Assembly: GCA_902826815.1 (NCBI GenBank) | Contig: CADEGF010000012.1 | Coordinates: 1 to 45,709, forward strand | Length of the DNA: 45,709 bases | Source: an uncultured Mycobacteriaceae bacterium | GTDB taxonomy: Bacteria > Actinomycetota > Actinomycetes > Mycobacteriales > Mycobacteriaceae | Reading direction: 5' to 3' | Part shown: positions 95 to 18,856 of the stretch, piece by piece | Numbering within the stretch: position 1 is the stretch's first letter | How the letters are laid out: every line of letters begins with the position of its first letter | Program-made: the position numbers and the translations under genes | The notes under the pieces: model-generated | Database searches by the model: none | Seen by the model: the letters and a program-made list of their open reading frames with translations, nothing else | Told to the model about the DNA's origin: nothing

Positions 95-121
95 CTTTAC
101 AATTAGAGAGCAAACTGTCAC
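95..121 (+). promoter_or_regulatory. Shared inverted-repeat operator, site A
   Basis: CTTTACA (95-101), a 14-nt spacer, then TGTCAC (116-121). The site ends 9 nt before the ATG at 131. The same arrangement occurs at four other places in the window. TTTACA also has the right distance (17 nt) from a weak -10-like CACTCT (119-124), and a transcript would then start at about the ATG. Operator function is inferred from recurrence and position. Confidence 0.65.
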
Positions 122-130
122 TCTCAGCTC

Positions 131-622
131 ATGGACGACGCCACCGCCCTGCTGGACATCGAGGCGATCAAGCAACTCAAGGCCCGCTACTGCCGGCTCC
201 TGGACACCAAGGAGTGGCAGGGGTGGCGCGCACTGTTCGCCGACGATTTCCTCAGCGACACATCGAAAGCCGGCGGGAAGGTCATCCGGGGCGCCGACGA
301 GTTCGTCGCGTTCACCCGTAAGGGCCTGCGGTCGCAGCCCACCGTGCACCAGGTGCACGCACCCGAGATCGAGCTGACCTCCCCGACCACCGCGCGCGGG
401 GTGTGGGCGTTAGAGGATGTGGTCCGCTTCGGGCCTGGCGTGAACCTGCGCGGTTACGGGCACTACACCGAGACCTACGAGAAGGTGGACGGCCAGTGGG
501 TGTTCACCAGCTCCGTGTTGACCCGACTGCGCGAAGACATCTTCAATGCGTTTGTCTCCGTCTATATCTCGAGCAGGCTCCGGCGGGTGATCGGCAAGGC
601 AGCCGGCAGGGTGATGAAGTGA
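131..622 (+). CDS. SnoaL-like (SnoaL_4 type) protein, putative dehydratase/isomerase
   Basis: A 163-residue protein whose first 120 residues read as an NTF2-like alpha+beta barrel of the SnoaL_4 type: a helix with KARYCRLLDTKEW, then LFADDF, a central VHQVHAPEIEL strand and a YTETYEKVDGQW end. The family includes dehydratases and isomerases that act on ring or acyl-CoA substrates, such as BaiE-like proteins. The Tyr and Asp of the first helix and the central His are where such enzymes keep catalytic residues. A basic tail (residues 145-163) follows the fold. The start has no Shine-Dalgarno and lies 9 nt after operator site A, so a leaderless message is likely. The stop overlaps the next start by 4 nt (GTGA). 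The substrate cannot be told from sequence. Confidence 0.8.
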   Translation: MDDATALLDIEAIKQLKARYCRLLDTKEWQGWRALFADDFLSDTSKAGGKVIRGADEFVAFTRKGLRSQPTVHQVHAPEIELTSPTTARGVWALEDVVRFGPGVNLRGYGHYTETYEKVDGQWVFTSSVLTRLREDIFNAFVSVYISSRLRRVIGKAAGRVMK

Positions 623-1434
623 CCGAAGCGCCGCTGCTGTACGGGTCCAACACCGCGCTCGGCCGGTTCAGCATCGCGAACCTGGTGGACAGCCCCGATC
701 CGTTCGTCAGCTCGATGCCTGCGGCGAGTTTGGTGAACCCGGTGACCGGCACGCCCACCGCGGGACCGCTCGCGGTGCTGGTCGACCACGTGGCCGGCCT
801 GGTCAACCACTACCGCCGCGCCGACGACGAGTGGACCGTGTCCAGCGAGCTGTCGCTCGAACTGACCCCGACGGCGCTGACCGTCATCGCCGCCAAACCC
901 GACGTACCCGTCGTCGCGACCGGAAACCCCGTCGGCAGCCGGGCCTCATCGGCTTTCGGCATGTGCGAGCTCACGATCGACGACGACGTGATCGGCATTG
1001 GCACAGTCCGGTCCGTCTACGTCACCCATCCCGGAGAGTTCCCGCAGGAATGGCCAGAGCCCGTCGACGGGCCGAGGCCGACGGACCTGGCCGAGATCAT
1101 GGCGCTGCGACTCGGTGACGAGAACGGCTCCCCGGTGATCCATCAGCGGCCGAATCCGGTCCTCAACAACAGCCTTGCCATCGTGCACGGCGGCGTGGCG
1201 GCCGCGGGCCTCGAGCTCGCGGCATGCGCCGCGCTGAACGCCGATCGCCCCGAGAAGCCGTTGAACACCGCATCGTTGCGGGTGAACTTCCTGCGTCAGT
1301 TCTTCAGCGGCGACCAATCCCGTTATGCGGGAACGGCTCTGCGTGTCGGTAGGCGCAGCGGTGTGGCCGACGCGCAGGCCATCGGCGCCGACGGCCAGGT
1401 CGCGCTCGTCGGCCGCGTCACCGCGTACCGGTGA
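619..1434 (+). CDS. Hotdog-fold thioesterase family protein (PaaI-like)
   Basis: A 271-residue protein read from GTG 619, which overlaps the upstream stop by 4 nt; the frame stays open further upstream but that part only shadows the SnoaL gene. It looks like two hotdog domains. The first half has GPLAVLVDHVAGLVNHY, and the second has NPVLNNSLAIVHGGVAAAGLELAA, the HGG helix typical of PaaI-like acyl-CoA thioesterases. These release a free acid from CoA thioesters. Coupling to the SnoaL gene and control by site A put it in the same pathway. It converges on the LLM gene with a 3-nt gap. Family call is firm; substrate is unknown. Confidence 0.75.
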   Translation: MTEAPLLYGSNTALGRFSIANLVDSPDPFVSSMPAASLVNPVTGTPTAGPLAVLVDHVAGLVNHYRRADDEWTVSSELSLELTPTALTVIAAKPDVPVVATGNPVGSRASSAFGMCELTIDDDVIGIGTVRSVYVTHPGEFPQEWPEPVDGPRPTDLAEIMALRLGDENGSPVIHQRPNPVLNNSLAIVHGGVAAAGLELAACAALNADRPEKPLNTASLRVNFLRQFFSGDQSRYAGTALRVGRRSGVADAQAIGADGQVALVGRVTAYR

Positions 1435-1437
1435 GCG

Positions 1438-2358: not shown

Positions 2359-2617
2359 CAACCGTCGCCTTCTGTGAATAATCTTCTCCAAAGTTGAGAA
2401 TGTCGTTACCATGCCACTCATATGACGGTCAACCCCGTGCGACACGGCCCCTTCCCCGGTCGCCTCGCGGCGTCAGCCAACGGCGCCACCACGATCACTC
2501 ACGGAAGGCTGGAACTACGGACATGACCCCGAAGGCGAGCGCGAGTGAGGATCGCAGCGAAGCGAGGACCGGTGGGCCCACGCCCGCAGGGCAGGGGACG
2601 AGCGGGAGTCGAGGCAG
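2359..2617. other. Divergent intergenic region between two LLM genes
   Basis: It holds the promoters of both LLM genes, but no clear -35/-10 pair was seen. The right 100 bases (about 2520-2617) are rich in GCGAGCG/GCGAAGCGAGG units and include the palindrome GTGGGCCCAC, giving a short reading frame that I do not call. A weak GGAG lies ahead of the ATG at 2618. There is no copy of the 27-bp operator. Confidence 0.4.
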
Positions 2618-3550
2618 ATGACGAGAGCCGAGATCGGTGTCTACCTCCCCCAGATGGGCTTCAGCTACGCCGACGTCCTGCACCGCGCACTGCGCTGCGA
2701 GCAGCTTGGCATCGACTCGCTGTGGCTCTACGATCACCTCTACGGCCCTGGTGCCCCCGACTATCCCTCGCTGGAGGCATGGACGCTGGCCACCGCACTG
2801 CTCAGCCGCACAGAACGCATCCAGGTCGGACACATGGTGTTGTGCAACCAGTTTCGCCATCCCGCGGTGCTCGCGAAGATGGCGACCACACTCGACCAGA
2901 TCTCCGCAGGACGCCTTCAGCTCGGCATCGGCAGCGGATCCATCGAGGACGAGCACGCGCGTGTCGGCATGGAGTGGGGCACGTTCGCGCAGCGCTCCGA
3001 GCGGCTCGGTGAGACGCTGGAGATACTGCGGCAGGCGTTCTCCGATGAGCGGATCGACTTCGCGGGAACGCATTTCACGGTGAAGGACATGCCGATCAAA
3101 CCAGGGCCGGTGCAGCCGCCGCGACCGCCCATCGTGGTCGGCGGTGTCGGCGAGAAGTACACCTTGCCGCTGGTGGCCAGATACGCCGACGTCTGGAACG
3201 TGCCGACGTATGCGCTCGGCGAGCTCGACCACAAGATCTCCGTGCTGCGAGCGCTTTGCGAGGGCATCGGACGCGATCCGGCCACGATCGTGTTGTCGAT
3301 CGAGGCGGTGATGGCGCTGGCGCCCGATGACGCATCGCTTCCCGGCGTGCAGCGGCTCGCCGAAAAGCGTTTCGGTATACCTGCTTTCGGGCTTCACGAG
3401 GGCGGCCTGATCGGAACGCCGCCCGCCATCGTCGACCGGCTACACGAACTGCAGGACATGGGTTTCGGCCAGATTGTGCTGTTCACCCATGATCGAGGTT
3501 CCGACGAGACGCTCGAACTGCTGACGTCCGCGGTGATCGAACGGCTCTAG
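2618..3550 (+). CDS. LLM-class F420-dependent oxidoreductase
   Basis: A 310-residue TIM-barrel protein. Landmarks are EIGVYLPQMGFSYADVLHRAL at the start, SLWLYDHLYGPG (substrate and cofactor loop), RHPAVLAKMATTLDQISAGRLQLGIGSG, and PPIVVGGVGEKYTLPLVARYADVWNVP. This is the usual F420 LLM layout and length. It belongs to a different subgroup from the neighbour on the other strand, judging from the loops after strands 1 and 7. Its last 4 bases overlap the end of the convergent acyl-CoA dehydrogenase gene. Its placement between genes with the shared operator suggests a reductive or oxidative step in the same pathway, but it has no site of its own. Confidence 0.85.
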   Translation: MTRAEIGVYLPQMGFSYADVLHRALRCEQLGIDSLWLYDHLYGPGAPDYPSLEAWTLATALLSRTERIQVGHMVLCNQFRHPAVLAKMATTLDQISAGRLQLGIGSGSIEDEHARVGMEWGTFAQRSERLGETLEILRQAFSDERIDFAGTHFTVKDMPIKPGPVQPPRPPIVVGGVGEKYTLPLVARYADVWNVPTYALGELDHKISVLRALCEGIGRDPATIVLSIEAVMALAPDDASLPGVQRLAEKRFGIPAFGLHEGGLIGTPPAIVDRLHELQDMGFGQIVLFTHDRGSDETLELLTSAVIERL

Positions 3551-4716
3551 GAACCCTTCTTCACCGGCGGCGAGTAATTCGGCCTGCCGAGGCCGAGCGC
3601 GTGCTGGGCGATCATGTTCCGGAAAACCTCGAGCGTGCCGCCGTAGATCCCGGTCGGGCCCGCAAGCCGGAAGACGTACTCGGCGCCACCGTCGCCGACG
3701 GCACCCTTCTCGTCGACCGGCAGCGTCGACGCCGCGCCGAGGATGTCCATCAGATCCGGCGAGACATCGCGCATGGTCTGTGCATTCGCGACGCGACCGA
3801 ACATGTCCGGTGTGCTCATGGCCGCCTCCATGCGCGCGACGCTGCGGCCGAGCCGATACTTCACCGAGTCCTCGTCGGCCGTGAGCGCAGCGACCTCGTC
3901 GAGCGCCTCCGCGAGCAGCAGCACATGCTCGGACATCACCGCGACCTTCTGCAGACCGTCGTCGCCGCGTTCGACGGTGCCGTGTTCGTCGTTGAGCGCT
4001 TCGCGCAGCACGGTCCAGCCGCCATTGACATCGCCGATCCGGTACTTGTCGTCGACGCGGACGTCGCTGTAATAGGTGATGTTGGTGCGGTCGCCGTCCA
4101 CCGTCCGCAGCGCCTGGATCTCCACGCCGGGTGAGTCCAGCGGGACCAGGAACATGGTCAGGCTCTGATGCTTCGGTGCGTCGGTATCGGTGTTGGTGAC
4201 CAAGAAGACGTACGACGCGTTGTGTGCGTTCGACGTGAACATCTTGGAGCCATTGATAATCCAGCTTGATCCATCCGCTTCCCGCACTGCCCGCGTCTTG
4301 CATGTCGCGACGTCCGAGCCACCCTCGGGTTCGGTGTAGCCGAGGCACAGCCGGAAGTGCCCGGCCAGCGTGCGTTCGAGGATTTCCTCTTGGAGTTCGG
4401 GTGAGCCGAACTGCTTGACCGCACGCGCCACCATTGCCGTCGTGCCCCAGTGAAACCACGGTGTATGGGCGCGGCCGATCTCCAGATCCCAGATGCGTTT
4501 ACGGAGTCGCGTGAAGCCGCCGTCGGCCTCGTCGTTGAAGTCCGCGGCCAGATAACCCGCCCTGCCGAGGGCCAAATGCACGCCCTCGTCGAAATTCTCG
4601 CCGGTCTCGCGGTCGCGCTGAATAACCTCGTCGGTGACGAGTTCGTTCAGGAACGACCTGAGGTCGTCCCTGAACGATTCATCGTCTTTCGACAGCGCAA
4701 CCCGGGAGAAGTCCAT
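3547..4716 (-). CDS. Acyl-CoA dehydrogenase (FadE family)
   Basis: A 389-residue flavoprotein that would introduce a 2,3-double bond into an acyl-CoA. An N-terminal helical domain (residues 1-120) precedes the beta domain with CLGYTEPEGGSDVATCKTRAV and WIINGSKMFTSN, the FAD and substrate-binding signatures. The C-terminal helical domain ends with GPTGIYGGTLEVFRNMIAQ. The position holding Glu in medium-chain enzymes (YEGT) is Gly here (YGGT), as in many mycobacterial FadE proteins that place the base elsewhere or act as heteromers. Operator site B lies 10 nt before the ATG, no Shine-Dalgarno is strong, and the gene has its own promoter although the secreted-protein gene upstream is on the same strand. 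Confidence 0.88.
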   Translation of the reverse strand: MDFSRVALSKDDESFRDDLRSFLNELVTDEVIQRDRETGENFDEGVHLALGRAGYLAADFNDEADGGFTRLRKRIWDLEIGRAHTPWFHWGTTAMVARAVKQFGSPELQEEILERTLAGHFRLCLGYTEPEGGSDVATCKTRAVREADGSSWIINGSKMFTSNAHNASYVFLVTNTDTDAPKHQSLTMFLVPLDSPGVEIQALRTVDGDRTNITYYSDVRVDDKYRIGDVNGGWTVLREALNDEHGTVERGDDGLQKVAVMSEHVLLLAEALDEVAALTADEDSVKYRLGRSVARMEAAMSTPDMFGRVANAQTMRDVSPDLMDILGAASTLPVDEKGAVGDGGAEYVFRLAGPTGIYGGTLEVFRNMIAQHALGLGRPNYSPPVKKGS

Positions 4717-4726
4717 CTCCGCTAGA

Positions 4727-4753
4727 GTGACAGTTGCGCGCCTATCTGTAAAG
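4727..4753 (-). promoter_or_regulatory. Shared inverted-repeat operator, site B
   Basis: On the plus strand it reads GTGACA (4727-4732), 14 nt, TGTAAAG (4747-4753). Read towards the acyl-CoA dehydrogenase it is CTTTACA-N14-TGTCAC, ending 10 nt before the ATG, almost exactly as at site A, including the following CTCT. It sits only 5 nt from the stop of the upstream gene. Operator function is inferred. Confidence 0.65.
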
Positions 4754-4758
4754 CCGTG

Positions 4759-6390: not shown

Positions 6391-7320
6391 TCATAATTCG
6401 CCCAGCAAATGATCTTGAATGGTTGTTTTACAAGCCCGCTGTAATGCAGTTCCTTGGAGTTTGTACAACTGCTGACTCGTCTCCCACTCCGGCAGGAACG
6501 CGTCGAAGCCGTGGCAGGTGCCGGGAAACACGTGCAACTCGGTCGCGACGCCTGCCCTCAACAACCGCACGGCGTAGTCAATCGCTTCGTCGCGCAGTGG
6601 GTCCAGCTCCGAACATGTGATCAACGCGCTTGGCGCACCGGCAAGGTCGGTGCGGCGGGCTGGTGCCGCATCCGCTGAGGCCTGGCCACCCGACAGATAG
6701 TGGCGCCACATCAGTTCGACAGCGGGCCCGTCAAATCCCGGCGTCGAGTCGAATTCCTCGGTCGACGGCGTCGGCCGATCGTCGAGCACGGGCTGATGCA
6801 GCAACTGGAACACCAGGCGCGAGCCTTCGCGCTGCGCGAGTCCGGCCGCAAGGGCACCCCCCGCACTGCTGCCCGCTGCCGCCAGCCGATCGGTGTCGAT
6901 CTGCAGTCGGCTCGCGTTGTCGGCGGCCCAGTCGAATACCGCCGTCGCATCCTCGAGCGCCGCGGGGAACGGATGTTCCGGCGCCAGTCGATAGTCGACA
7001 GAGATGACGGTGCATCGCCCGCGCCTGGCGAGCTCGACGCACTGCCGGTGGTCGACGTCGAGGTTACCGAGCACGAAAGCGCCTGAGTGGCAATAGATGA
7101 CCGCAGGCGCGGGTGACGGCCCGCCGCGATAGATGCGCACCGGTACGGCACCTGCCGCCGTCTCCTCGACGTCGACGCCGGTGGTATCGACCGTGCGCGC
7201 TTCGTCTCGGCGCCGCTGGTTCAGCGACTGACGAAACGTGGACAGCGCCTCGGCCGAGATGTTGGTGCGCGCCTCGGAGAGGTGACGGAGCACAGGATCC
7301 AGCCTGTTGGCGACATCCAC
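6391..7320 (-). CDS. Alpha/beta hydrolase of the hormone-sensitive-lipase (HSL) family
   Basis: A 309-residue esterase, last gene of the seven-gene operon. The oxyanion-hole region reads YCHSGAFVLGNLDVDH, where most family members have HGGGF. The nucleophile elbow is GSSAGGALAAG, the acid is in SELDPLRDEA, and the His is in PGTCHGFDAF near the end. I chose GTG 7320, 5 nt after the monooxygenase stop; a much longer frame to 7755 only shadows the monooxygenase gene. Following a Baeyer-Villiger enzyme, it likely cleaves the ester or lactone that enzyme makes; this pairing is known from cyclic ketone pathways. The natural substrate is an inference. Confidence 0.85.
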   Translation of the reverse strand: MDVANRLDPVLRHLSEARTNISAEALSTFRQSLNQRRRDEARTVDTTGVDVEETAAGAVPVRIYRGGPSPAPAVIYCHSGAFVLGNLDVDHRQCVELARRGRCTVISVDYRLAPEHPFPAALEDATAVFDWAADNASRLQIDTDRLAAAGSSAGGALAAGLAQREGSRLVFQLLHQPVLDDRPTPSTEEFDSTPGFDGPAVELMWRHYLSGGQASADAAPARRTDLAGAPSALITCSELDPLRDEAIDYAVRLLRAGVATELHVFPGTCHGFDAFLPEWETSQQLYKLQGTALQRACKTTIQDHLLGEL

Positions 7321-7325
7321 GGCGG

Positions 7326-8843
7326 TTACCGCAGCGCCGCGGTATGCGACTCGACCTTGAGCGCAGGCTCTGGTGGGGCCGCGGTGAAGATGTAGTCGGC
7401 TGCGTTGAACCGGCGAGTCATCCCCCAGAACGCGCGGGCGCTGCGGGGCCACTGAGTCACCACACGCCCGTTGGCGGCGCGGAAGTAGTTGTGGCAGCGC
7501 GTCAGCCACACCGTTCCCTGCATCCATCCGTCGATCTTCTCGATGAAGTCCGCCATGGTGTCCCGCCGGACCGCGATATAGGACCTGTGCCTGCGGCGCA
7601 TGTGCTTCATGGCGCGCACGATGTAGCGGGCCTGCGCCTCCAGCATGAAGATGACGCTGTTGGAGCCGACGTTGGTATTGGGTCCGTACAGCATGAAGAA
7701 GTTCGGGTAGCCGGGGACGGCCATCCCGAGATATGCGTACGCCCCGTCGGCCCACATCTCCCGCAGCGATGCGCCACCCTCACCGACGACGTCGATCTGC
7801 CCCAGATAGTCGGCTGCGGCATACCCGGTGGCGCACAACACCACGTCGACATCGAGTTCCGAACCGTCTTCTGTCACCAACGATCTGGACTTGAGATGCC
7901 GCGCCGGACTCGATACCACCTCGACGTGCGGTTGCGTCAAGGTCTGCAGGTAGTCCGTCGCGAATACCAGGCGCTTGCAGCCGAATGGATGTTCTGGGGT
8001 CAATCTGCCACGCAACTCGTCGTCGGCGACGATCGAATCGAGTTGATGCAGCGCGATGCCCTTGAACTCCTGTGTCTTGTCGCTTCCGTGCTCGATCACC
8101 CCGATATTGGACTCGCTGCGCAGCCAGAGCCTGGTTCGGTAGATCTTCTTGGCTAACGGCACGTGGGCGAACAGCCACTTCTCCCGCTCGGTGTAGGCGC
8201 GGTCTGGCTTGGGCAGGATCCACGTCGGTGAGCGCTGGACGGAATATACCTTCTTGGCGACCTTGGCCACCTCGGGAATCAGTTGCGATGCAGTCGATCC
8301 CGTGCCGAGGACAGCGACTCGAGCATCGTGAAGGTCGACCGACTTGTCCCAGCGAGCGGTGTGCATGACGGTGCCGGTGAACGGTTCCTGCTCGACGAGG
8401 TCGGGCAGGACGGGCTGGGTGAACAGCCCGACGGCCGACACCACGATGTCGAACGTGTACCGCTGCCCCGTACTCGTTGTCAGCGTCCAGTTGTCGGAGT
8501 CGGCGTCCCAGTTCGCGGCGACGATCTCGGTGCCGAGCTTCAGGTTCGGACCCAGTCGATAGCGCTCCGCGCACTGCTCGAAGTAGGCCAGGATCTCGGG
8601 CTGCTCGGACCACAGCCGCGACCAGTTCGCGTTGAGGTCGAACGAGTACGAGTACAGGTGTGATTTGACGTCGCAGGCCAGACCCGGATAGGTGTTGATC
8701 CGCCAGGTGCCGCCGACACCGTCTTCCCGGTCGAAGATGGTGAATTCGCGAAAGCCGGCCTTTCGCAGAAAGATTCCCAGCGCCAGGCCTCCTGGCCCGG
8801 CACCGATGATCCCGACGGACAGTGCCTTGGCCACCCGGGTCAT
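7326..8843 (-). CDS. Flavin-containing Baeyer-Villiger monooxygenase
   Basis: A 505-residue FAD/NADPH enzyme that inserts oxygen next to a ketone to give an ester or lactone. The FAD Rossmann motif GIIGAGPGGLALG is near residue 10, the Baeyer-Villiger fingerprint FTGTVMHTARWD is around residue 165, the NADPH Rossmann motif VLGTGSTASQL follows, and a C-terminal ATGY motif closes the FAD domain. The ATG at 8843 overlaps the SDR stop by 4 nt (ATGA). An open frame reaches 9377 but the extra part is antisense-like sequence of the SDR. Its position after an alcohol dehydrogenase and an SDR, and before an esterase, fits a hydroxylation-ketone-ester route. Confidence 0.9.
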   Translation of the reverse strand: MTRVAKALSVGIIGAGPGGLALGIFLRKAGFREFTIFDREDGVGGTWRINTYPGLACDVKSHLYSYSFDLNANWSRLWSEQPEILAYFEQCAERYRLGPNLKLGTEIVAANWDADSDNWTLTTSTGQRYTFDIVVSAVGLFTQPVLPDLVEQEPFTGTVMHTARWDKSVDLHDARVAVLGTGSTASQLIPEVAKVAKKVYSVQRSPTWILPKPDRAYTEREKWLFAHVPLAKKIYRTRLWLRSESNIGVIEHGSDKTQEFKGIALHQLDSIVADDELRGRLTPEHPFGCKRLVFATDYLQTLTQPHVEVVSSPARHLKSRSLVTEDGSELDVDVVLCATGYAAADYLGQIDVVGEGGASLREMWADGAYAYLGMAVPGYPNFFMLYGPNTNVGSNSVIFMLEAQARYIVRAMKHMRRRHRSYIAVRRDTMADFIEKIDGWMQGTVWLTRCHNYFRAANGRVVTQWPRSARAFWGMTRRFNAADYIFTAAPPEPALKVESHTAALR

Positions 8844-10305: not shown

Positions 10306-11270
10306 CGGACGAGCGCGATCTTGATACGTTCCGGCGTCGGCCTGCACGCCAGCTCGAAGGCGTCCTGCACGTCATCGACGTCGAAGGTGTGGGTGACGTA
10401 GGCAGGGAGCAGCTCAGGATGCTCGCGGGCGAATTCGTTGGCGGCACACAACATGCGGCGACGGTCCAGTGTCACACCGGATTTCAGCGTCAGATTGTTG
10501 CGCAGCATGGTGCGCATGCTGATCGGGTAGCTGTCGTCGTCGGCGACACCGAAGTAGAAGACCGTGCCCCCGAACGCGGCCGCTTCGACAGCGTGGCCAA
10601 GCGTTGCCACCTGGTGCCCGACGGCCTCGACCACGACGTCGGGTTTGTCGTGTGCGTCAAGGTGACTCACCCATCGATCGCTGGTCGCACGCACGACGGT
10701 GTCGACGCCGAACTCCTTGGCGACGGCGCCGCGATCGATCGGGTCCACGCCGGTGACACGGCGGGCGCCTGCGGCCTTGGCAGCATAGGAGAACAGCAAC
10801 CCGATCGAGCCCTGACCGATGACGGCGACGTGCGACCCCTTCAGCTTCGGAAGTTGCTCGATCGCGTACAACACACATGCCAGAGGTTGCAACGCCACGG
10901 CATGCTGCGAAGTAAGCGACTGGTCGAACGGCGCCAACCCGTCACCGTCGGCGACGACGTATTGCATCAATCCGTCGAAGCCGGAGGCCCAGCCGACGAC
11001 GCGGTCGCCGATGCCGTGGCTGCGATTTCTGCTGGCCACCACTTCCCCGACGATCTCGTGGATCGGAAAGCCGTCCATTTCGGCCGCACTCGTACCCGTG
11101 TCGCCGGGAAGTCGGCCCTTCGAACCGCGGAAGCCGGGCAGGTCGCTGCCACACACTCCCGCCGCGACGAAGCGGACAAGCACCTGGCGGTCGCCGAGCG
11201 ACTCCGGCGTCTTCTCCGGAATATCGATCCGCTCAAAGGTGTACGGGGCCACCAGCCGATACGACCACAT
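10302..11270 (-). CDS. Zinc-type medium-chain alcohol dehydrogenase
   Basis: A 322-residue MDR protein. The catalytic zinc region is AAGVCGSDLPGFRG with a later FPIHEIVGEVV in place of the usual GHE. The Rossmann motif is VIGQGSIGLLFSYAAKAAGA and a DPIDR segment ends the second strand. The structural-zinc four-Cys loop is not evident: the segment after GDRVVGW is short and lacks the Cys cluster. Start ATG 11270 is 1 nt after the P450 stop. It would oxidise the alcohol made by the P450 to a ketone or aldehyde with NAD(P). IHE replacing GHE is a modest variation of the zinc-ligand site. Confidence 0.85.
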   Translation of the reverse strand: MWSYRLVAPYTFERIDIPEKTPESLGDRQVLVRFVAAGVCGSDLPGFRGSKGRLPGDTGTSAAEMDGFPIHEIVGEVVASRNRSHGIGDRVVGWASGFDGLMQYVVADGDGLAPFDQSLTSQHAVALQPLACVLYAIEQLPKLKGSHVAVIGQGSIGLLFSYAAKAAGARRVTGVDPIDRGAVAKEFGVDTVVRATSDRWVSHLDAHDKPDVVVEAVGHQVATLGHAVEAAAFGGTVFYFGVADDDSYPISMRTMLRNNLTLKSGVTLDRRRMLCAANEFAREHPELLPAYVTHTFDVDDVQDAFELACRPTPERIKIALVR

Positions 11271-11271
11271 C

Positions 11272-12513
11272 TCAGACGCCCTCCGCCTGGACCTCGACAG
11301 GAACACAGTTCCAGCCCCACTGGAAACTCGACGGTGGCCGCGACGCCGACTCACTGACGATCCGGTAGTCGCGCACGCGTTTCAGCCACTCCGACACCAG
11401 GATCGTGATCTCCAATCGGGCCAGGTGTACGCCGAGGCAGAAGTGCTGTCCGCGGCCGAACGCCAACAGACGCTGAATTGGTCGGTCCCACACGAATTCG
11501 TCGGGATCGCGATATTCGCGCTCATCGCGGTTGGCCGAAGCCAGCAGCGTGATGATCCGCTGACCCGGTTCGATGGTGGTGTCGTGAATTGTGAACGGTT
11601 GACGCACGGTGCGGGCGAACCATTGAGCGGGTGCGCAGTAGCGGATCATCTCCTCCCGCGCCTTCGGCACTCCTGCATCGATATCGGCACGGACGGCGGT
11701 CATCTGGTCGGACCGCAGGCCCAACTCCCACAGGCCGTGCGCCACGATCTTCGGCACGGTTTCGGTGCCGCCGATGAAGACGCCCAGCATCTGGGTCGCC
11801 GCCTCGATGTCGGTGAACGGCGAGCCGTCCGGCAACCGGTAGCCGACGAGGTTGTCGGCGATCGGGAGGTCGTCACCGTCGCCCCTGCGGCTGCGCTGCA
11901 CGATCGGCACCAGATACTCGAGATATCCTGGTCGGGCGTTGGCCACTTCGACCCCGCTACCGGGTTGGGCAAGGCTTCCGGCGTTCACGGTGGCCAGCAC
12001 GTCGGGAGCCAAATCAGCCGGTAGGCCCAATAATTCGCACACCACTGATGCGGCGACTATCCCGCCGTATTCCTGGGTGAGGTCGAAGGTTCCGCGTGAT
12101 AGCAGTTCGTCGAGGCGTTCGTTGGCGAGCACGCGTATGCGGTCGGCGAGCTTGGCGGCGGACTTCGGCCGGAACGGTCCCGAGGTGCACCGCCGGACGC
12201 CGTCGTAGATCGGGCTGTCGAAGTTCGCGTGGAACGGCATGGGGTGCAGCGGCGGGTCGGGCACCGGTCCGTCGTTGTGCCCGGCCAGAACGGTTGCGGC
12301 GGGCAGGGTTCCCTCAGAGGCGACGAAGGTCCCGTCGTTGATCTCCAGCACCTGCCAGATGTCGGAGAATCGGGCCAGCGCGTAGGTGTCCCACTTCTCG
12401 ACGTAGTACACGGGGTGTTCGTCGCGCAGTATGCGGTAGTACGGCAGCGGGTCGGCCATCACCGCCGGGTCGAACGGATCGTATGAGAAGTGCTGGAGCA
12501 CAGGTGTGTTCAT
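11272..12513 (-). CDS. Cytochrome P450 (first of two in the region)
   Basis: A 413-residue bacterial P450 (heme-thiolate monooxygenase). The heme-binding loop is FGRGQHFCLGVHLARLE, the ExxR motif is in REEMIRY, and the I-helix reads GVFIGGTETVPK, where Gly replaces the first Ala of the usual AGxDT and Glu-Thr provides the acid-alcohol pair. The ATG at 12513 overlaps the upstream stop by 4 nt. It has no ferredoxin gene next to it; the ferredoxin beside the second P450 may serve both. Hydroxylation of an unactivated carbon is the expected first step of the pathway. I cannot assign a CYP family. Confidence 0.9.
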   Translation of the reverse strand: MNTPVLQHFSYDPFDPAVMADPLPYYRILRDEHPVYYVEKWDTYALARFSDIWQVLEINDGTFVASEGTLPAATVLAGHNDGPVPDPPLHPMPFHANFDSPIYDGVRRCTSGPFRPKSAAKLADRIRVLANERLDELLSRGTFDLTQEYGGIVAASVVCELLGLPADLAPDVLATVNAGSLAQPGSGVEVANARPGYLEYLVPIVQRSRRGDGDDLPIADNLVGYRLPDGSPFTDIEAATQMLGVFIGGTETVPKIVAHGLWELGLRSDQMTAVRADIDAGVPKAREEMIRYCAPAQWFARTVRQPFTIHDTTIEPGQRIITLLASANRDEREYRDPDEFVWDRPIQRLLAFGRGQHFCLGVHLARLEITILVSEWLKRVRDYRIVSESASRPPSSFQWGWNCVPVEVQAEGV

Positions 12514-13220
12514 TGCAGCGGTGACGGGGGTAGCGCCTGCAGGATCGAGTCCTCCCAGCCGTCGCGCAGAGCGGGTGCGACGCTCATCCAGGTGACGATC
12601 TCGGCGGGCGGGCTGTCCTTCCAGGACGGGTAGTGGTTTTCGAAGCAGTCCCAGCCGCCCTCGAGCGCCCAGTAGTGGATCACCTCGTTGAACCGGAAGG
12701 TGGTGATGAACGAGCCCAACCACATCTTGCCGGTGCTCTCCGACCACGGAACATAGAGCCGCTCCAGCTCGCGGATGTAGTCGTCCTGGCGGCCCGGCTT
12801 GCTCTCCATGATCTCCTGGATCACCAGGCCTGCGGTGAAGTTCGCCTCCTTGAGCTGAGCCAGTGTCCTGTTGCTCCGTCCGGCATACATGATGCGACCC
12901 TCACCCGAGGCACCGATGTCGGACAGGAACGCGCTCCACTTCCCGTATGCCGCCTCGTGACTGCCGCCCCGCGACTGCGCCCGCCCGATGCCTGCGTAGA
13001 CGGCGAAGGCGTCGATCTCCCAGATCACGGTGACCTGCGGCCAGTGCCCGTTGAACGGCGTCGTCTCCCAGATCGCGAACAGTCGCGCGCCGAGCTCTTC
13101 CATCATCGGCTGGTAGACCGTGCTGAAGGCTTCGGTGAAGTCGTCGCTGCGGCCGGACCCGAGGTCGATGGTCTCGTGCAGGTAGAGAAGCGTGTGGCTG
13201 TGATACTTCTTCATATTCAT
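12510..13220 (-). CDS. NIPSNAP-like / dimeric alpha-beta barrel protein
   Basis: A 236-residue protein of no firm family. It seems to be a duplicated ferredoxin-like fold: residues 1-110 begin KKYHSHTLLYLHETIDLG and include WPQVTVIWEIDAFAVYAG, and residues 120-230 repeat the design with GLVIQEIMESKPGRQDDYIREL and EVIHYWALEGGWDCFENHY. Proteins of this build often bind small hydrophobic ligands or act as cofactor-free oxygenases or isomerases. It is first in the seven-gene operon, 41 nt from operator site C. Start could be 13220 or 13214 (ATG-AAT-ATG); neither has a strong Shine-Dalgarno. Confidence 0.65.
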   Translation of the reverse strand: MNMKKYHSHTLLYLHETIDLGSGRSDDFTEAFSTVYQPMMEELGARLFAIWETTPFNGHWPQVTVIWEIDAFAVYAGIGRAQSRGGSHEAAYGKWSAFLSDIGASGEGRIMYAGRSNRTLAQLKEANFTAGLVIQEIMESKPGRQDDYIRELERLYVPWSESTGKMWLGSFITTFRFNEVIHYWALEGGWDCFENHYPSWKDSPPAEIVTWMSVAPALRDGWEDSILQALPPSPLQ

Positions 13221-13261: not shown

Positions 13262-13288
13262 GTGACACTTATGGCGTGTTTTGTAAAG
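13262..13288. promoter_or_regulatory. Shared inverted-repeat operator, site C (divergent)
   Basis: GTGACA (13262-13267), 14 nt, TGTAAAG (13282-13288), between the seven-gene operon (start 13220, minus) and the lactonase gene (start 13296, plus). It ends 7 nt before the lactonase ATG. Rightward, GTGACA stands 17 nt from AAAGGT, and leftward TTTACA stands 17 nt from CACGCT, so each half can serve as a -35-like element. Function is inferred. Confidence 0.65.
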
Positions 13289-13295
13289 GTGCCGG

Positions 13296-14114
13296 ATGAG
13301 CCTGACACCACTGGCGAACGGTTTCTGCTTCGGGGAGGGCCCCCGGTGGTTCGAGGGCCTGCTGTGGTTTTCCGACATGCTCGGCGAAGCGGTGCACACG
13401 GTGGACATGCAGGGCGATACGACCACGCTTCCGCTGGCCGGACATGCCCCGTCGGGCCTGGGCTTTCGGCCCGACGGATCGCTACTCATCGCCTCTACCG
13501 AGCGTAGGACGCTGCTGAGCTATGACGGCGAGTCCGTCGACACCGTCGCCGACCTGTCCGACTTCGTTCCCGCGAGCATTGGCGACATGGTCGTCGACGG
13601 GCACGGCCGCGCCTACGTCGGCTCGCAGGCATTCGAGGGCGGCGTCATCGCGCGCGTCGACCCCGACGACGTAGTCACGGTCGTCGCCGAGGACCTCGAC
13701 TTCCCGAATGGGATGGTCATCACGCCGGACGGGTCGACGCTCATCGTCGCCGAGTCGGTCGGCAGACGGTTGACGTCGTTCGCGATCGGTCCCGACGGGT
13801 CACTGTCCGATCGTCAGGTCTTCGCCGACGGGCTCGACGGCCCGCCCGACGGTATCGCCCTCGATGCAGATGGCGGGGTATGGGCGGCGATGACTCTGGC
13901 CCACCAGTTCGAGCGAATTGCCGAGGGCGGCAACGTCACCGACCGAATCGACATCGGCGACCGCACCGCGATCGCCTGCACTCTTGGCGGGCCGGAGCGG
14001 CGCACGCTCTTCCTGCTGTCGAGTACCGACGCCTATCCCCAGCGCCTTGTCGGGACGAAACTGTCGCGACTCGACGCCACCACCGTCGACATCCCAGGAG
14101 CGGGTCTACCGTGA
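13296..14114 (+). CDS. SMP-30/gluconolactonase/LRE family lactonase
   Basis: A 272-residue six-bladed beta-propeller protein. The metal-binding Glu is in FGEGPRW (residue 14), the Asn in DFPNGMVITPDGSTLIVAES, and the Asp in GPPDGIALDADGGVW, the three ligands expected for this calcium or zinc lactonase family. It would open a lactone ring, which suits a partner Baeyer-Villiger enzyme in the divergent operon. Start ATG 13296 lies 7 nt after operator site C with no Shine-Dalgarno, so a leaderless message is likely. Its stop overlaps the next start (GTGA). Confidence 0.88.
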   Translation: MSLTPLANGFCFGEGPRWFEGLLWFSDMLGEAVHTVDMQGDTTTLPLAGHAPSGLGFRPDGSLLIASTERRTLLSYDGESVDTVADLSDFVPASIGDMVVDGHGRAYVGSQAFEGGVIARVDPDDVVTVVAEDLDFPNGMVITPDGSTLIVAESVGRRLTSFAIGPDGSLSDRQVFADGLDGPPDGIALDADGGVWAAMTLAHQFERIAEGGNVTDRIDIGDRTAIACTLGGPERRTLFLLSSTDAYPQRLVGTKLSRLDATTVDIPGAGLP

Positions 14115-14923
14115 GCGACTCTTATTACGAACTGGTCGATGACTCCGATCCGCAGGGCGAGAGATTCGTCGCGACCGACCTGGTGCGCAGCACGTGGTCG
14201 GCGGCCATCCAGCACGGTGCACCGGTGTCGGCGTTGCTGACCCGCGCGCTGGAGCGCTGCGAGGCACGCGATGACACCCGGTTGAGCCGGGTGATGGTGG
14301 ACCTGTTGGGCCCCGTGCCCGCCGAAGGCGACATCTGGGTGCGTGCGCGACGGGAACGCTCCGGCAAGCAGATCGAGTTGATCAGCGCCGAGATGCTGGG
14401 CCTGGGCCCCGACGGTCCGCGCCCAGTCGCGAGAGCCAGCGGGTGGCGGCTACAGAAGCTCGACACCGCCGACGCAGTGCACGCCGCCGCACTGCCGCTT
14501 CGCCCGCTCGCCGAGGCGTGGAGCCGCGACCTGAAGAAGGACTGGGACCGCAACTACGTGCACAGCCTCGATTGGCGCTGGCTCACCGAGCCGATGAGCG
14601 ACGGGCCCGGCGAGTCATGGATCAAGCCGGAGGTCGATCTGGTCAAGGGCGAGAGCATGACTGCGCTGGAGCGGCTGTTCGCGGTCGCGGACGATGCCAA
14701 CGGCATCGGTACCAAGCTCGACATCAGGAAATGGATGTTCATGAACACCGACCTGGTCGTGCACGTGCACCGCATTCCCGACGGCGAATGGATCGGCATT
14801 CGCGCAGAAACCAACTACGGCCCCGACGGCATCGGCACCACGATCGGCACGCTGTTCGACGAGACGGGTGCGATCGGCGCGATCCAGCAGTCGGTGCTGG
14901 TGCGCCCGATGCCGGGCCGCTAG
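14111..14923 (+). CDS. Acyl-CoA thioesterase-like double-hotdog protein (TesB-like)
   Basis: A 270-residue protein from GTG 14111, coupled by a 4-nt overlap to the lactonase gene. Residues 15-100 form the first hotdog (FVATDLVRSTWSAAIQHGAPVSALL, then LSRVMVDLLGPVPAEGDIW), and residues 150-270 the second (WIKPEVDLVKGESMTALERLFAVADDANGIG, WMFMNTDLVVHVHR). Mycobacterial proteins of this type are annotated as thioesterase-family or acyl-CoA thioesterase II-like. A role in freeing an acid from CoA is inferred. An N-terminal extension in the same frame to 13880 shadows the lactonase gene and is discarded. Confidence 0.78.
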   Translation: MSDSYYELVDDSDPQGERFVATDLVRSTWSAAIQHGAPVSALLTRALERCEARDDTRLSRVMVDLLGPVPAEGDIWVRARRERSGKQIELISAEMLGLGPDGPRPVARASGWRLQKLDTADAVHAAALPLRPLAEAWSRDLKKDWDRNYVHSLDWRWLTEPMSDGPGESWIKPEVDLVKGESMTALERLFAVADDANGIGTKLDIRKWMFMNTDLVVHVHRIPDGEWIGIRAETNYGPDGIGTTIGTLFDETGAIGAIQQSVLVRPMPGR

Positions 14924-15036
14924 GGCGTGAGTTTGGCGATACCGCTAGATTCGGCCACTCCGACCGAAAAGCCAGTCGCACGGCCTCGGCGAAAGGACGG
15001 TCTGGCTTAGCTCCGCGAGGCCATCGAAATAGGGCT
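14924..15036. other. Intergenic region with possible terminator
   Basis: It follows the thioesterase and precedes the 3' end of a minus-strand gene. AAGCCAG (14970-14976) and CTGGCTT (15002-15008) can pair around a GC-rich loop, which could form a weak bidirectional terminator. GGCCATCG appears twice nearby. No gene is seen. Confidence 0.35.
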
Positions 15037-15512: not shown

Positions 15513-15635
15513 TCGTCGCGCCTCCTACCAATTTCGCGTGCAATCCTTGGGAAGTCAGTTCCATCGAATCTTGCCAGTACTCCTTGTGCGGCCGCATCGC
15601 ATTCGAAACATCACTTGAAACCAAGGCACATCGAG

Positions 15636-15827
15636 CTAGCCAATTAGCCGTAAAGCCGCTGCGGGGCACTGCGTTACGGCCTGCTGCATACGGTCACGAT
15701 CGGAGTCCGGCTGCTCGTCGCCTTCGATGTGCACGGTGCCGTCGTCCTGCACCTCGAACACGTCCTCGGCGATCGATTCGCAGATGCCGTGTCCAGTGCA
15801 CCTGTCGAGGTCCACTTCGACGCGCAT
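15636..15827 (-). CDS. P450-partner ferredoxin, 3Fe-4S type with His in the motif
   Basis: A 63-residue ferredoxin that passes electrons to a P450. It begins MRVEVDLDRCTGHGICESIAEDVFEV and ends VTQCPAAALRLIG. The cluster motif is CTGHGIC plus a distal CP, that is CxxHxxC...CP: His stands where a 4Fe-4S protein has the second Cys. Such ferredoxins are known beside mycobacterial P450 genes and normally carry a 3Fe-4S cluster with the remaining three Cys. ATG 15827 is 8 nt after the P450 stop; a GTG 6 nt earlier (15833) is an alternative. It is the only ferredoxin gene in the region, so it may serve both P450s. Confidence 0.9.
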   Translation of the reverse strand: MRVEVDLDRCTGHGICESIAEDVFEVQDDGTVHIEGDEQPDSDRDRMQQAVTQCPAAALRLIG

Positions 15828-15835
15828 GGTCACTC

Positions 15836-17089
15836 CTACCGAACGTGGGCTTTGACGCGTTTGACGCCGTGGACGAAGTTGCTGTAAAGCAGGTCGGGCT
15901 CGCCGAAGTCCTCGATCGTGAGCCGAGTCAGCAGTTCGCGGAAGAGGTTTCGCAATTCGGCCTTCGCCAGCTGGCTGCCGAGGCAGAAGTGTGGACCGCC
16001 GCCGCCGAAGCCGAGGTGCGGATTGGGCGACCGCTGCAGATTGAACGCGCCCGGGTTGTCGAAGACGGCTTCGTCGCGGTTGGCCGAGCAGTAGAAGAGC
16101 CCAACCTTGTCGCCCGCGCAGACCGGCTGCCCGTTGATCTCGGTGTCGACGGTTGCGAACCGCGCGAATTGGATCACCGGTGAGGCCCAACGAACGAATT
16201 CCTCCATGGCTGGCCCGATTCGGCCGTCGAAGTCGTCGGTCAACCAGTCGCGTTGTGCGGGTTCCTCTGCCAGCGCCATCATCGCGTGCGTGGTGGCCTG
16301 CTTGGTGGTGTCGTTGCCCGCCGACGCCAGCAGGATGAGAAAAGCCCCGATCTCCTCGTCGGTCAACTTGTGCCCGTCGACCTCGGCGTTGACCATGCTG
16401 GTCATCAGATCGTCGCCGGGGTTGGCGCGGCGGAACTTCGCGAGTTCAATTCCGGTGTCGGAGAGCAGGGTGATCTGCGCGATGGGATCCTGCGCGCGCT
16501 CGTCGGCGGTGGCGTACTCGTCGTCGCTCATGCCGAAGAGTTTCTCGGCGGCGTACGCCACATCCGGCTGATCGGCGGTCGGTACCCCGAGCATGTCCAT
16601 GATCGTCAGCATCGGCAGCTTCGCCGAGCACGCGGAGACGAATTCCACCTCGCCCGCGCCGACGAGGTCGTCGACGATGGCGACGGCGTTCCGCTGGATC
16701 TGGTCTTCGATCTGGCGGACGTTTCGCGGGGTGAACGCCGAGCTGATCAGGCGCCGGTACACCGTGTGCTGCGGCGGGTCCATGCTCAAGAAGAAGGACG
16801 CGAACCGCTGAATCTCGGCGGGCATCGGGCTGAGCGCCACGCCTTGGGCTGAAGTGAACAATTCGGGGTGCTGGCTGACGAAGGCGATGTCCGCGCGCCG
16901 CGTCAGCGCCCAGAAACCCGGCTCGTCCATAGGAAACATCGACTCGAAGGGTTGGTGCCAGGTAAGGCCGTCACCTGCACGGAGCCGCGCGAACGTCTCG
17001 TCGCGAACCGCGAAGGGCCGACTCCAGAAGTTCTCCGACGTGAGGTCGACCGGACTGTATTCGCGTGCCTGCACCGGGGCTGCTGTCAC
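15836..17089 (-). CDS. Cytochrome P450 (second), paired with ferredoxin
   Basis: A 417-residue P450. The I-helix has the canonical LLASAGNDTTKQATT, the ExxR is in MEEFVRWASP, and the heme loop is FGGGGPHFCLGSQLAKAELR. The N-terminal part (SPVDLTSENFWSRPFAVRDETFARLRA) resembles mycobacterial CYPs acting on sterol, terpenoid or branched lipids, but I cannot name a family. The start is GTG 17089, only 9 nt from operator site D, without a Shine-Dalgarno. The start codon itself lies in a second inverted repeat, TGTCAC-N9-GTGACA (17084-17104). It is co-transcribed with the ferredoxin. Confidence 0.9.
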   Translation of the reverse strand: MTAAPVQAREYSPVDLTSENFWSRPFAVRDETFARLRAGDGLTWHQPFESMFPMDEPGFWALTRRADIAFVSQHPELFTSAQGVALSPMPAEIQRFASFFLSMDPPQHTVYRRLISSAFTPRNVRQIEDQIQRNAVAIVDDLVGAGEVEFVSACSAKLPMLTIMDMLGVPTADQPDVAYAAEKLFGMSDDEYATADERAQDPIAQITLLSDTGIELAKFRRANPGDDLMTSMVNAEVDGHKLTDEEIGAFLILLASAGNDTTKQATTHAMMALAEEPAQRDWLTDDFDGRIGPAMEEFVRWASPVIQFARFATVDTEINGQPVCAGDKVGLFYCSANRDEAVFDNPGAFNLQRSPNPHLGFGGGGPHFCLGSQLAKAELRNLFRELLTRLTIEDFGEPDLLYSNFVHGVKRVKAHVR

Positions 17090-17098
17090 AGATTTAGC

Positions 17099-17125
17099 GT
17101 GACATTTCGCCGGAATTTTGTAAAG
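17099..17125. promoter_or_regulatory. Shared inverted-repeat operator, site D (divergent)
   Basis: GTGACA (17099-17104), 14 nt, TGTAAAG (17119-17125), between the P450 (start 17089, minus, 9 nt away) and the TetR gene (start 17134, plus, 8 nt away). Its location at a TetR promoter makes this TetR a candidate for binding the whole set of sites and controlling itself. Function is inferred. Confidence 0.7.
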
Positions 17126-17133
17126 CTATGCCG

Positions 17134-17670
17134 ATGGAGGACGCGGCTGTCGACGACGACAACTCGACGCGTCAGCGGATCCTGGCCGCGACCGCCGAGG
17201 TGCTGGGCCGCAACGGCATGACGAAGCTGAGCCTGTCCGAGGTCGCGTCGCAGGCAGGCGTTTCGCGGCCGACGCTCTACCGGTGGTTCGCGTCGAAACG
17301 GGATCTGCTCGACGATTTCGTGGTCTGGGAACGGAAGTACTACGAACGCGCCGTCACGCAGGCGACTGCCGGACTGCCCGCGGGCGAGAAACTCGACGCG
17401 GCCCTTCGCGTCATCGTCGAATACCAACAGTCCTACCCCGGACTGCGCATGATCGACATCGAACCGGCGCAGGTCATCCGGCGGCTGGCACGGGTCATCC
17501 CGCTGATGCGCGATCGCCTCGAGCGTCTTGCGCAGGGACCGGACGCGGCGCTTGCGGTTGCCACCGCCGTTCGAGTCGCGGTGTCGCACTACCTGGTTCG
17601 CAGCGACGACGACGACCAATTCCTGGCGCAGCTGCGGCATGCCGCGGGTGTCAAACCCGCCGCGATCTGA
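17134..17670 (+). CDS. TetR-family transcriptional regulator (paralogue 1)
   Basis: A 178-residue regulator. The DNA-binding domain runs from STRQRILAATAEVL to SEVASQAGVSRPTLYRWFASK, a standard TetR helix-turn-helix; the ligand-binding part ends HYLVRSDDDDQFLAQLRHAAG. I prefer ATG 17134 to ATG 17128: it places the start 8 nt from operator D, the spacing seen at other sites, and at the expected position of a leaderless transcript. The protein is a close relative of the TetR at 20055. Its 3' end overlaps the convergent CoA transferase gene by 20 bp. It is the best candidate for the regulator of the five-site regulon. Confidence 0.88.
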   Translation: MEDAAVDDDNSTRQRILAATAEVLGRNGMTKLSLSEVASQAGVSRPTLYRWFASKRDLLDDFVVWERKYYERAVTQATAGLPAGEKLDAALRVIVEYQQSYPGLRMIDIEPAQVIRRLARVIPLMRDRLERLAQGPDAALAVATAVRVAVSHYLVRSDDDDQFLAQLRHAAGVKPAAI

Positions 17671-18817
17671 GTTCGGCGAGGACCTCCTCGGTGTGCTCAC
17701 CGACGGCCGGAGCGGCAGACCGGGCCTCCCACGGCGTGCCGTGGAAATCGGCGGGCGTCGCAATCATCGGCACGCTGGAATCGCCGTGAGGCACGTAGAC
17801 CACCCCGCCTGCGGCGTGGAACTGCTCGTCGGCGATGACATCCTCGATCGTGTTGATCGGCGACCAGAAGAAATCGGGTTCTGCCGCAAACAGTTCCGCC
17901 CATTCGTCGAGCGGCTTTGTCGCGAAGATCTCGTCGAGAGCGCTGATGATCTCCACTGAGTTGCCTGCTCGGTCGCGGGGTCTCGGATAGGCGGTCAGCC
18001 AGTCGGTGCGGTCGACCACCCGACACAGCGGACCCCAGTGACGATCGACCTCGAGGCCGACGATCCAGAACCGCTTCCCGTCGCCCGCCGCGTAGTTGTT
18101 CATGCACGGGTTCGCCATCGAGTCGCGCTGGCCGATCGCGATGGCGTGGCCGGTCATCAGGAACGTGTTCAGGTCGAAGCTGACCGTGTATGCGCCCTGC
18201 CGGTACAGCGAGGTCGACACCAATTGGCCTACGCCGGTGCGCGACCGGGCGACCAGTGCGGCGGATACCGCCGCCACCAACGTCATCCCGGCGGTGTGAT
18301 CACCCATGCCGCCGCGCTGGAACGGGGGCGTGTCACCGGGACGGGTCAGCAGATGCGCCAGCCCGGCGCGGGCCCAGAACGCGGCGACGTCGTAGGCCGC
18401 GCGGTCGGCATCCGGCCCCGCGTTCCCGTAACCGGTGATCAGTCCGTACACCAACCGCGGGTTTCGCGCGGCGACGTTCTCGAAGTCCAAGCCGATGCGC
18501 CGAAGCGCACCCGGGCGTACATTGGTGATGAAAACATCTGCAGCGCTGACTAATTCGAGCGCGTGCCCCTGACCTTCCCCGGTCGTGAGATCCAGCACGA
18601 TGCTGCGCTTACCGCGGTTGTCCATCTCGAACGGCGGACTTCCGCCGTCCTCGAGGCCCAGCATCCTGCCGAACGTGCGAGCCGGATCGCCGGTCGGCGG
18701 CTCGATCTTGATGACGTCGGCGCCCCAGTCGGCCAGGATGCCGCCCGCCGCCGGGCCCGCCACCCACACGCCGAGTTCGACGACCCTGACGCCCTCCATC
18801 GGTCCGGTCATGACCAT
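17651..18817 (-). CDS. Family III CoA transferase (CaiB/BaiF type)
   Basis: A 388-residue enzyme that moves CoA between acids, activating the substrate. It shows MEGVRVVELGVWVAGPAAGGILADWGADVIKIEPP at the N-terminus, ENVAARNPRLVYGLITGYG, and the catalytic Asp in AAYDVAAFWARAGL. The DPARTFGR and NRGKRSIVLDL segments are also typical. Such enzymes begin CoA-dependent breakdown of carnitine, bile acids, and branched or aromatic acids. The start may be ATG 18817 or 18811; 18817 lies 12 nt from operator site E. It would take the acid freed by the lactonase or esterase into the acyl-CoA dehydrogenase step. Confidence 0.9.
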   Translation of the reverse strand: MVMTGPMEGVRVVELGVWVAGPAAGGILADWGADVIKIEPPTGDPARTFGRMLGLEDGGSPPFEMDNRGKRSIVLDLTTGEGQGHALELVSAADVFITNVRPGALRRIGLDFENVAARNPRLVYGLITGYGNAGPDADRAAYDVAAFWARAGLAHLLTRPGDTPPFQRGGMGDHTAGMTLVAAVSAALVARSRTGVGQLVSTSLYRQGAYTVSFDLNTFLMTGHAIAIGQRDSMANPCMNNYAAGDGKRFWIVGLEVDRHWGPLCRVVDRTDWLTAYPRPRDRAGNSVEIISALDEIFATKPLDEWAELFAAEPDFFWSPINTIEDVIADEQFHAAGGVVYVPHGDSSVPMIATPADFHGTPWEARSAAPAVGEHTEEVLAELRSRRV

Positions 18818-18829
18818 CCCTTCCGCCGC

Positions 18830-18856
18830 TTTACAATTTGTCTTCTTTTTGTAAAG
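18830..18856. promoter_or_regulatory. Shared inverted-repeat operator, site E (most symmetric)
   Basis: TTTACA (18830-18835), 14 nt, TGTAAAG (18850-18856); with C18829 the arms CTTTACA/TGTAAAG form a perfect 7-bp inverted repeat. It lies between the CoA transferase (minus) and the phosphotransferase-fold gene (plus). As the fully symmetric copy it gives the best estimate of the operator consensus. Function is inferred. Confidence 0.7.

Follow-up and report, generated by a model that had tools for sequence, protein, structure and literature searches.

A widely spaced inverted repeat at catabolic promoters of mycobacteria, predicted to be the operator of a TetR subfamily

The 45,709-nt stretch examined here (the window; positions 1-45,709 of contig CADEGF010000012.1, assembly GCA_902826815.1, from an uncultured Mycobacteriaceae bacterium) carries five copies of an inverted repeat next to catabolic and regulator genes, four of the form CTTTACA-N14-TGTCAC and one of the symmetric form CTTTACA-N14-TGTAAAG. 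An earlier note on this DNA had taken the repeat for a regulon operator, probably one for TetR, and the restriction of the sites, their conservation and their absence from the 25 genomes of the genus that lack the regulator all support that view. We consider it very likely that the repeat acts as the operator of a single TetR subfamily, whose members in this genome we call TetR1, TetR2 and TetR3. The best reading of the data is a TetR operator, autoregulatory as a rule, that would control three conserved divergent promoters (cytochrome P450/TetR, SMP-30/oxidative operon and coenzyme A (CoA)-transferase/kinase) and a number of outlying genes.

Results

Sites in the window

All five sites listed in the earlier note are present (Table 1), the four asymmetric ones without a mismatch. 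The symmetric one, site 5, lies where it had been placed, at 18830-18856, but its length of 27 bp was not correct; it is a perfect repeat of 28 bp that occupies 18829-18856. When the 28-bp form is matched with up to three mismatches, exactly these five sites are returned, against 0.17 expected from dinucleotide shuffles, in agreement with the statement that the window holds no further copy; a variant with an N13 spacer has no match. The TGTCAC form matched with up to three mismatches occurs eight times against 3.98 expected, and 5 of 100 shuffles reach eight. As this is near chance, we took the exact forms as decisive and dropped loose matching.

The sites do abut gene starts, as proposed: of the eight facing starts, six lie 3-12 bp from a site, and the remaining two, those of the kinase and of the first gene in the seven-gene operon, are about 40 bp from the site. 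At site 1 the conserved T of the TGTCACTCT arm is followed 7 nt on by the ATG of the SnoaL-like gene, and we give the positions of other starts relative to the same T (T+7 in this case). Site 2 serves the acyl-CoA dehydrogenase only, the gene on the opposite side terminating there, and at site 4 TetR1 has in-frame ATGs at both T+1 and T+7.

Restriction within the genome

In the whole genome (6,871,345 bases in 141 contigs) there are nine matches to the relaxed symmetric pattern KTKACA-N14-TGTMAM and none to its reversed control. Five of the nine palindromes are those of the window, two are on contig C8, one is on C41 and one on C49. Far from occurring equally often inside unrelated genes, which the earlier note had named as the result that would count against it, the motif is found at catabolic, regulator or related genes in eight of the nine cases. 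The ninth, on C49, is within the coding sequence of an unrelated gene and was treated as chance. The regulon is wider than the earlier note had it, with additional sites on other contigs (C8:99547, C8:101039 and C41:30437) and a third TetR. One of the C8 sites is ahead of a kinase gene and the other is ahead of TetR3. The stretch separating TetR3 from a PF10118 gene also contains a one-mismatch copy (C8:101106-101132), 41 bp past the TetR3 site, and the two would form a tandem operator (locus L015, approximately 10539-10633); sites in tandem occur in locus L132 too, at 9871 and 9942. On C41 the site lies ahead of a homologue of the c30 family, with 48% identity across some 150 residues, and the adjoining gene shares 80% identity with the thioesterase family TE_C. 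In slow-growing relatives, c30 and TE_C are in the main cluster and have sites there; thus, the site goes with the gene when the gene is located elsewhere.

The TetR subfamily

With the two window TetRs and the one on C8 combined into a profile, the genome returns exactly three strong members (E < 1e-96), and the next TetR scores 3e-11. All three are in site-bearing loci and all have the N-terminal TetR_N helix-turn-helix (PF00440; E 5e-15, 7e-11 and 8e-15). A site is found directly ahead of TetR1 and TetR3, and the same holds for 50 non-redundant TetR-facing arms. TetR2 has no site directly ahead, the gene being located behind the kinase. The TetRs of several slow growers and of genome G191 likewise lack an exact site directly ahead of them, and we conclude that autoregulation is not universal. 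In three genomes (G033, G095 and G120) there is an in-frame stop inside the subfamily match, so these copies are broken or misread.

Co-occurrence of motif and regulator

We compared 148 genomes of the genus, the present one included, counting exact sites and accepting subfamily TetRs at E ≤ 1e-30. Motif and TetR occur together in 116 genomes, TetR without motif in 7, motif without TetR in none, and neither in 25, of which 6 are larger than 5.5 Mb (Fisher p 2.5e-22, a nominal value as the genomes are related). Site-bearing genomes have mostly 3-8 matches (range 1-20; symmetric sites may count twice), with 0-2 in the control columns. The seven genomes that have TetR and no exact site (G083, G062, G041, G054, G055, G069 and G077) count against the operator reading. 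In G083 and G062 the TetR is an orphan with no gene cluster within the 20 kb examined, in G041 the gap between kinase and CoA-transferase holds a degenerate ATTACA-N14-TGTAAT instead, and in G054 a relaxed site is located 1.4 kb from TetR. Matching with one mismatch in 18 chosen genomes did not separate TetR-positive genomes, TetR-negative genomes and the reversed control, and it was not used for counts. At the other extreme of the range, G066 has 20 exact pattern matches and four TetRs, and the regulon looks far larger in that species.

A family-wide draw of 151 genomes gave the TetR in 13, ten of them members of the genus and three from outside it. Two genomes of genus g20, G166 and G191, have seven and six relaxed palindromes; in G191 the cluster is conserved and a site separates the operon from SMP-30. 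G260, from another genus, has a TetR that is 45% identical to TetR1 and has different neighbours; the sole relaxed palindrome of that genome is 1-2 bp ahead of the called GTG start of the TetR. The background of the relaxed pattern is low, with 0-2 matches in each of 20 TetR-negative genomes of other genera (except for 14 in G161), 0-2 in ten TetR-negative genomes of the genus and 0-3 in reversed controls. The lone site at the start of the G260 TetR is therefore a strong independent pointer, although it counts against it that the called start is a GTG and that the first in-frame ATG is 12 nt further in, 14 bp from the site.

Two other palindromes came to light in these scans. The 14 matches in G161, which is from another genus and has no TetR of the subfamily, are near-identical copies of a GC-rich palindrome, TTTACACCCGCAGCTGCGGGTGTAAA (for example, L217, C50:4274-4299), perhaps a mobile hairpin or another operator. 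Palindromes of the TTGACATG type, with the same N14 geometry, are found in G097, G062, G069, G146 and G168 (L219, L223, L227, L226 and L229) and are possibly operators of another regulator.

Conservation and anatomy of the site

Locus counts rest on 73 named loci from the best 80 matches of the TetR profile scan. At least one site is present in 68 of the 73 (175 matches in 1.28 Mb; none in the reversed control). Because the loci were selected by TetR, this recurrence is a measure of conservation rather than independent proof. With double matches collapsed and the window added, these loci give 176 sites. An ad hoc gene caller puts 166 of them between genes; of the ten others, six are in open reading frame (ORF) family c40, which we take to be false ORFs opposite SMP-30. 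The leading divergent pairs are P450 b/TetR (35 sites), SMP-30/first gene of the seven-gene operon (29) and CoA-transferase/kinase (25), and aldehyde dehydrogenase accounts for 15. The motif recurs at orthologous promoters in relatives, which is the kind of support that the earlier note had asked for.

The 137 distinct asymmetric sites yield the consensus AnCTTTACAAA-N9-aAGTGTCACGCT, whose final G, C and T reach 95, 94 and 86%, and 32 distinct near-symmetric sites yield CTTTACAA...TTTGTAAA; in both, the search itself imposed the outer letters CTTTACA and TGTCAC or TGTAA. A single half-site, AnCKTKACA, describes either arm; the arms are separated by 14 bp and their centres by about 23 bp. We suggest that two TetR dimers are likely to sit on the operator, as with QacR, because the arm centres are wider apart than one usual TetR dimer spans. 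The QacR operator is reported as a 28-bp palindrome bound by a tetramer (PMC4482099); it resembles the present one in length and in its two widely spaced arms, whereas the genes here are unrelated to efflux.

Overlap with promoters

Reading outward, one arm is TTTACA or GTGACA, each one base off TTGACA, and 17 bp after this -35-like arm the other reads [AC]A[AC]GNT, in which positions -11 and -7 are A and T, such that each arm resembles a -35 box one way and a -10 box the other way. In-frame starts peak at T+6, T+7 and T+8 (25, 54 and 13; positions 9-60 average 2.94 each), and five of the eight facing starts in the window are at such a leaderless distance: SnoaL at +7, acyl-CoA dehydrogenase at +8, P450 b at +7, SMP-30 at +6 and the second ATG of TetR1 at +7. 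Starts at T+5 to T+8 are found for P450 b in 27/37 cases, TetR in 23/50, aldehyde dehydrogenase in 14/15, kinase in 12/27 and SMP-30 in 9/37. Mycobacteria make leaderless transcripts often; they are reported for 26% of the Mycobacterium tuberculosis genes with a primary start site, and leaderless promoters are defined there by a TANNNT -10 box 7-12 bp ahead of the start site (PMC3898074). TGTCAC arms keep the T in 111/113 cases when facing a gene, compared to 17/34 when not (p 4e-11).

In a step beyond the earlier note, repeat and promoters may well be one and the same stretch of DNA, and the geometry of arms and starts suggests leaderless transcripts and repression by occlusion. It is quite possible, although we would stop short of calling it probable, that the palindrome combines a TetR operator with two divergent leaderless promoters whose -35 and -10 arms are interleaved. 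Several observations speak against such an arrangement. Of TANNNT, the -10-like hexamer matches the A at -11 and the T at -7 but not the first T; TGTAAA arms keep the T in 109/172 cases facing a gene and in 28/37 not facing one (p 0.18), and among them the T is tied only weakly to leaderless starts (p 0.08). Start codons also accumulate at T+1 (27, for the most part the first ATG of a TetR) and, within the arm, at T-9 (28). Finally, starts at T+5 to T+8 are rare for CoA-transferase (0/26), the first operon gene (1/30) and TE_C (1/11), and are absent from families c30 and c28 (0/10 each). With the evidence from the T, the TANNNT box and the start codons mixed in this way, we regard the promoter reading as plausible but not settled. 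Bidirectional promoters that rely on -10 symmetry have been described (PMC12825309); in these one -10 box is shared, and the distance between start sites is 18 bp as a rule, with 10 and 23 bp also seen. The present element is like these in having symmetric DNA for divergent transcription; however, its arms would share -35 and -10 roles and its predicted start sites are about 45 bp apart, which places it outside the shared -10 type.

Genes around the sites

The genes next to the window sites are listed in Table 1. The flavin monooxygenase matches the steroid monooxygenase structure best over residues 8-212, and its nearest relatives are steroid and cyclic-ketone Baeyer-Villiger enzymes. The best structural matches of P450 b after CYP268A2 are CYP125 and CYP124 entries; the reported substrates of these two enzymes are methyl-branched lipids and the side chain of cholesterol (PMC6469627). 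The first protein of the seven-gene operon has relatives in 41 of the 76 sequences compared. Taken together, the likenesses of P450, Baeyer-Villiger enzyme and kinase, along with the alcohol dehydrogenases, SMP-30 protein, hydrolase, aldolase, CoA-transferase, acyl-CoA dehydrogenase and thioesterases, suggest that the gene set degrades a compound that is methyl-branched, terpenoid or steroid-like. A 480-residue ORF (4759-6201, minus strand), Asn/Gly-rich by eye, terminates at site 2 and has no Pfam match at E 0.001.

Table 1. Repeat sites and neighbouring genes, with window positions
Feature	Position	Strand	Remarks
Site 1, CTTTACA-N14-TGTCAC	95..121	+	Upstream of SnoaL-thioesterase operon; 0 mismatches
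Site 2, CTTTACA-N14-TGTCAC	4727..4753	-	Upstream of acyl-CoA dehydrogenase, ATG at T+8; 0 mismatches
Site 3, CTTTACA-N14-TGTCAC	13262..13288	-	Between seven-gene operon (-) and SMP-30/thioesterase (+, ATG at T+6); 0 mismatches
Site 4, CTTTACA-N14-TGTCAC	17099..17125	-	Between P450 b (GTG at T+7) and TetR1; 0 mismatches
Site 5, CTTTACA-N14-TGTAAAG	18829..18856	.	Perfect 28-bp repeat between CoA-transferase (-) and kinase-TetR2 (+)
SnoaL-like protein	131..622	+	PF13577, E 6e-28
Hotdog thioesterase	619..1434	+	PF03061
Acyl-CoA dehydrogenase	3547..4716	-	PF02770/PF02771
Alpha/beta hydrolase, hormone-sensitive-lipase like	6391..7326	-	Last of seven-gene operon; PF07859, under curated cut-off
Flavin monooxygenase, Baeyer-Villiger type	7326..8843	-	Closest solved structure steroid monooxygenase 4ap3, E 8e-61
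Short-chain dehydrogenase	8840..9562	-	
HpcH/HpaI aldolase	9559..10302	-	
Zinc alcohol dehydrogenase	10302..11270	-	
Cytochrome P450 (a)	11272..12501	-	
Conserved protein	12510..13220	-	First of seven-gene operon; no Pfam or NCBIfam match at E 0.001
SMP-30/lactonase-like protein	13296..14114	+	PF08450
Acyl-CoA thioesterase (4HBT_3)	14111..14923	+	
Small ferredoxin-like protein	15636..15827	-	Adjoins P450 b; named from position, size and sequence
Cytochrome P450 (b)	15836..17089	-	Closest solved structure CYP268A2, 6bld, E 3.5e-123, query residues 1-411
TetR1	17128..17670	+	PF00440, E 5e-15; possible leaderless start at 17134
Class III CoA-transferase	17651..18817	-	PF02515, E 8e-111
Kinase, APH/ecdysteroid-kinase-like group	18894..20009	+	PF02958, PF01636; AGGAGG ahead of GTG start
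TetR2	20055..20603	+	64-66% identical to TetR1

Discussion

In the mechanism we propose, a TetR dimer or a pair of dimers would occupy both arms when no effector is present and would cover the promoters of the adjoining genes, often including its own. The effector is probably an intermediate in the breakdown of a methyl-branched or terpenoid/steroid-like lipid, or the CoA ester of such an intermediate. Its binding would free the operator, and monooxygenases, dehydrogenases, lactonase, CoA-transferase, kinase and thioesterases would be switched on together.

The existence of two site forms and of paralogous TetRs raises the question of whether the forms are divided between the paralogues, with the asymmetric one recognised by TetR1 and the symmetric one by TetR2. 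The symmetric form is mainly located at the CoA-transferase/kinase-TetR2 operon, and TetR1 falls within a clade of 43 rows (support 100/99). However, the asymmetric form is also in use in slow growers whose TetR lies on the far side of this split; the separation is thus imperfect, and we find the division doubtful. We think it improbable that TetR is an activator or dual-acting rather than a simple repressor. The missing first T of the -10-like hexamer may mean that the promoters are weak alone, but the operator covers approximately -3 to -39 for six of the eight facing window starts, where bound TetR would block polymerase at a leaderless promoter, and the majority of the TetRs studied act as repressors (PMC3511530).

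The promoter-like features of the arms, namely the -35-like (TTTACA/GTGACA) and -10-like sequences 17 bp apart and the many starts at leaderless distance, would also be expected if the motif were merely the promoter of a particular sigma factor and the TetRs bound elsewhere. We judge this very unlikely: a housekeeping promoter is not expected in only eight places or only in TetR-bearing genomes, mirror symmetry is needless where one side alone has a gene, and G260 has its one relaxed site at TetR. No sigma gene was noticed among the named genes, no search having been aimed at sigma genes. If the TetR operator does overlap two leaderless promoters, the mirror symmetry would be maintained by the dimeric repressor and RNA polymerase alike. 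A single element of about 32 bp would then switch both sides, a compact divergent layout that we did not meet in the literature consulted.

KstR and KstR2 are TetR regulators of mycobacterial catabolic regulons, with TNNAACNNGTTNNA and ANCAAGNNCTTGNT as operator consensus sequences. The present system is like theirs in having a TetR beside and within lipid-catabolic genes, a palindrome at many promoters, and P450s together with acyl-CoA enzymes; in contrast, the operator has another sequence and a much wider spacing. No KstR site of the above form is found in the window (0.17 expected), nor is any KstR2 site. The C71 cluster is, judging by gene order, the presumed counterpart of the CYP51/Rv0767c cluster. 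Palindromes TGGACAgcTGTCCg and TGGACAtgTGTCCA flank the TetR of this CYP51-like cluster (L152, 7760-7945) and are likely to be a form of the Rv0767c-type operator. A palindrome termed motif X is reported ahead of P450s, dehydrogenases and three TetRs in a Mycobacterium and is assigned to the Rv0767c orthologue (PMC6593523). Identity of our repeat with motif X, the motif of an Rv0767c-type TetR at phytosterol-induced genes, is very unlikely: both are palindromic and, in a Mycobacterium, lie ahead of genes for P450s, dehydrogenases and TetRs (PMC6593523), but the C71 TetR is outside the present subfamily (a helix-turn-helix-only match, E 4e-5) and is flanked by TGGACA-type palindromes, the 14.5 kb examined of C71 contain no CTTTACA-N14-TGTCAC site even with 2 mismatches allowed, and Rv0767c binding regions are described as rich in GAC/GTC and poor in TAA/TTA (PMC10312376). 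The present motif appears to be set apart from motif X by regulator and cluster, not by the letters of motif X. The earlier note knew of no published mycobacterial operator of this form, and we recognised none among the open-access papers listed in searches for this regulon.

The repeat points to an uncharacterised regulon in most of the mycobacteria sampled (116/148), with a clear predicted operator, a regulator subfamily and a gene list. What would be one signal unites a CYP268-like P450, a Baeyer-Villiger-type enzyme, an ecdysteroid-kinase-like kinase and a CoA-transferase, and their joint substrate is now testable. If the overlap of operator and two-way leaderless promoter is correct, one palindrome would serve both repressor and polymerase.

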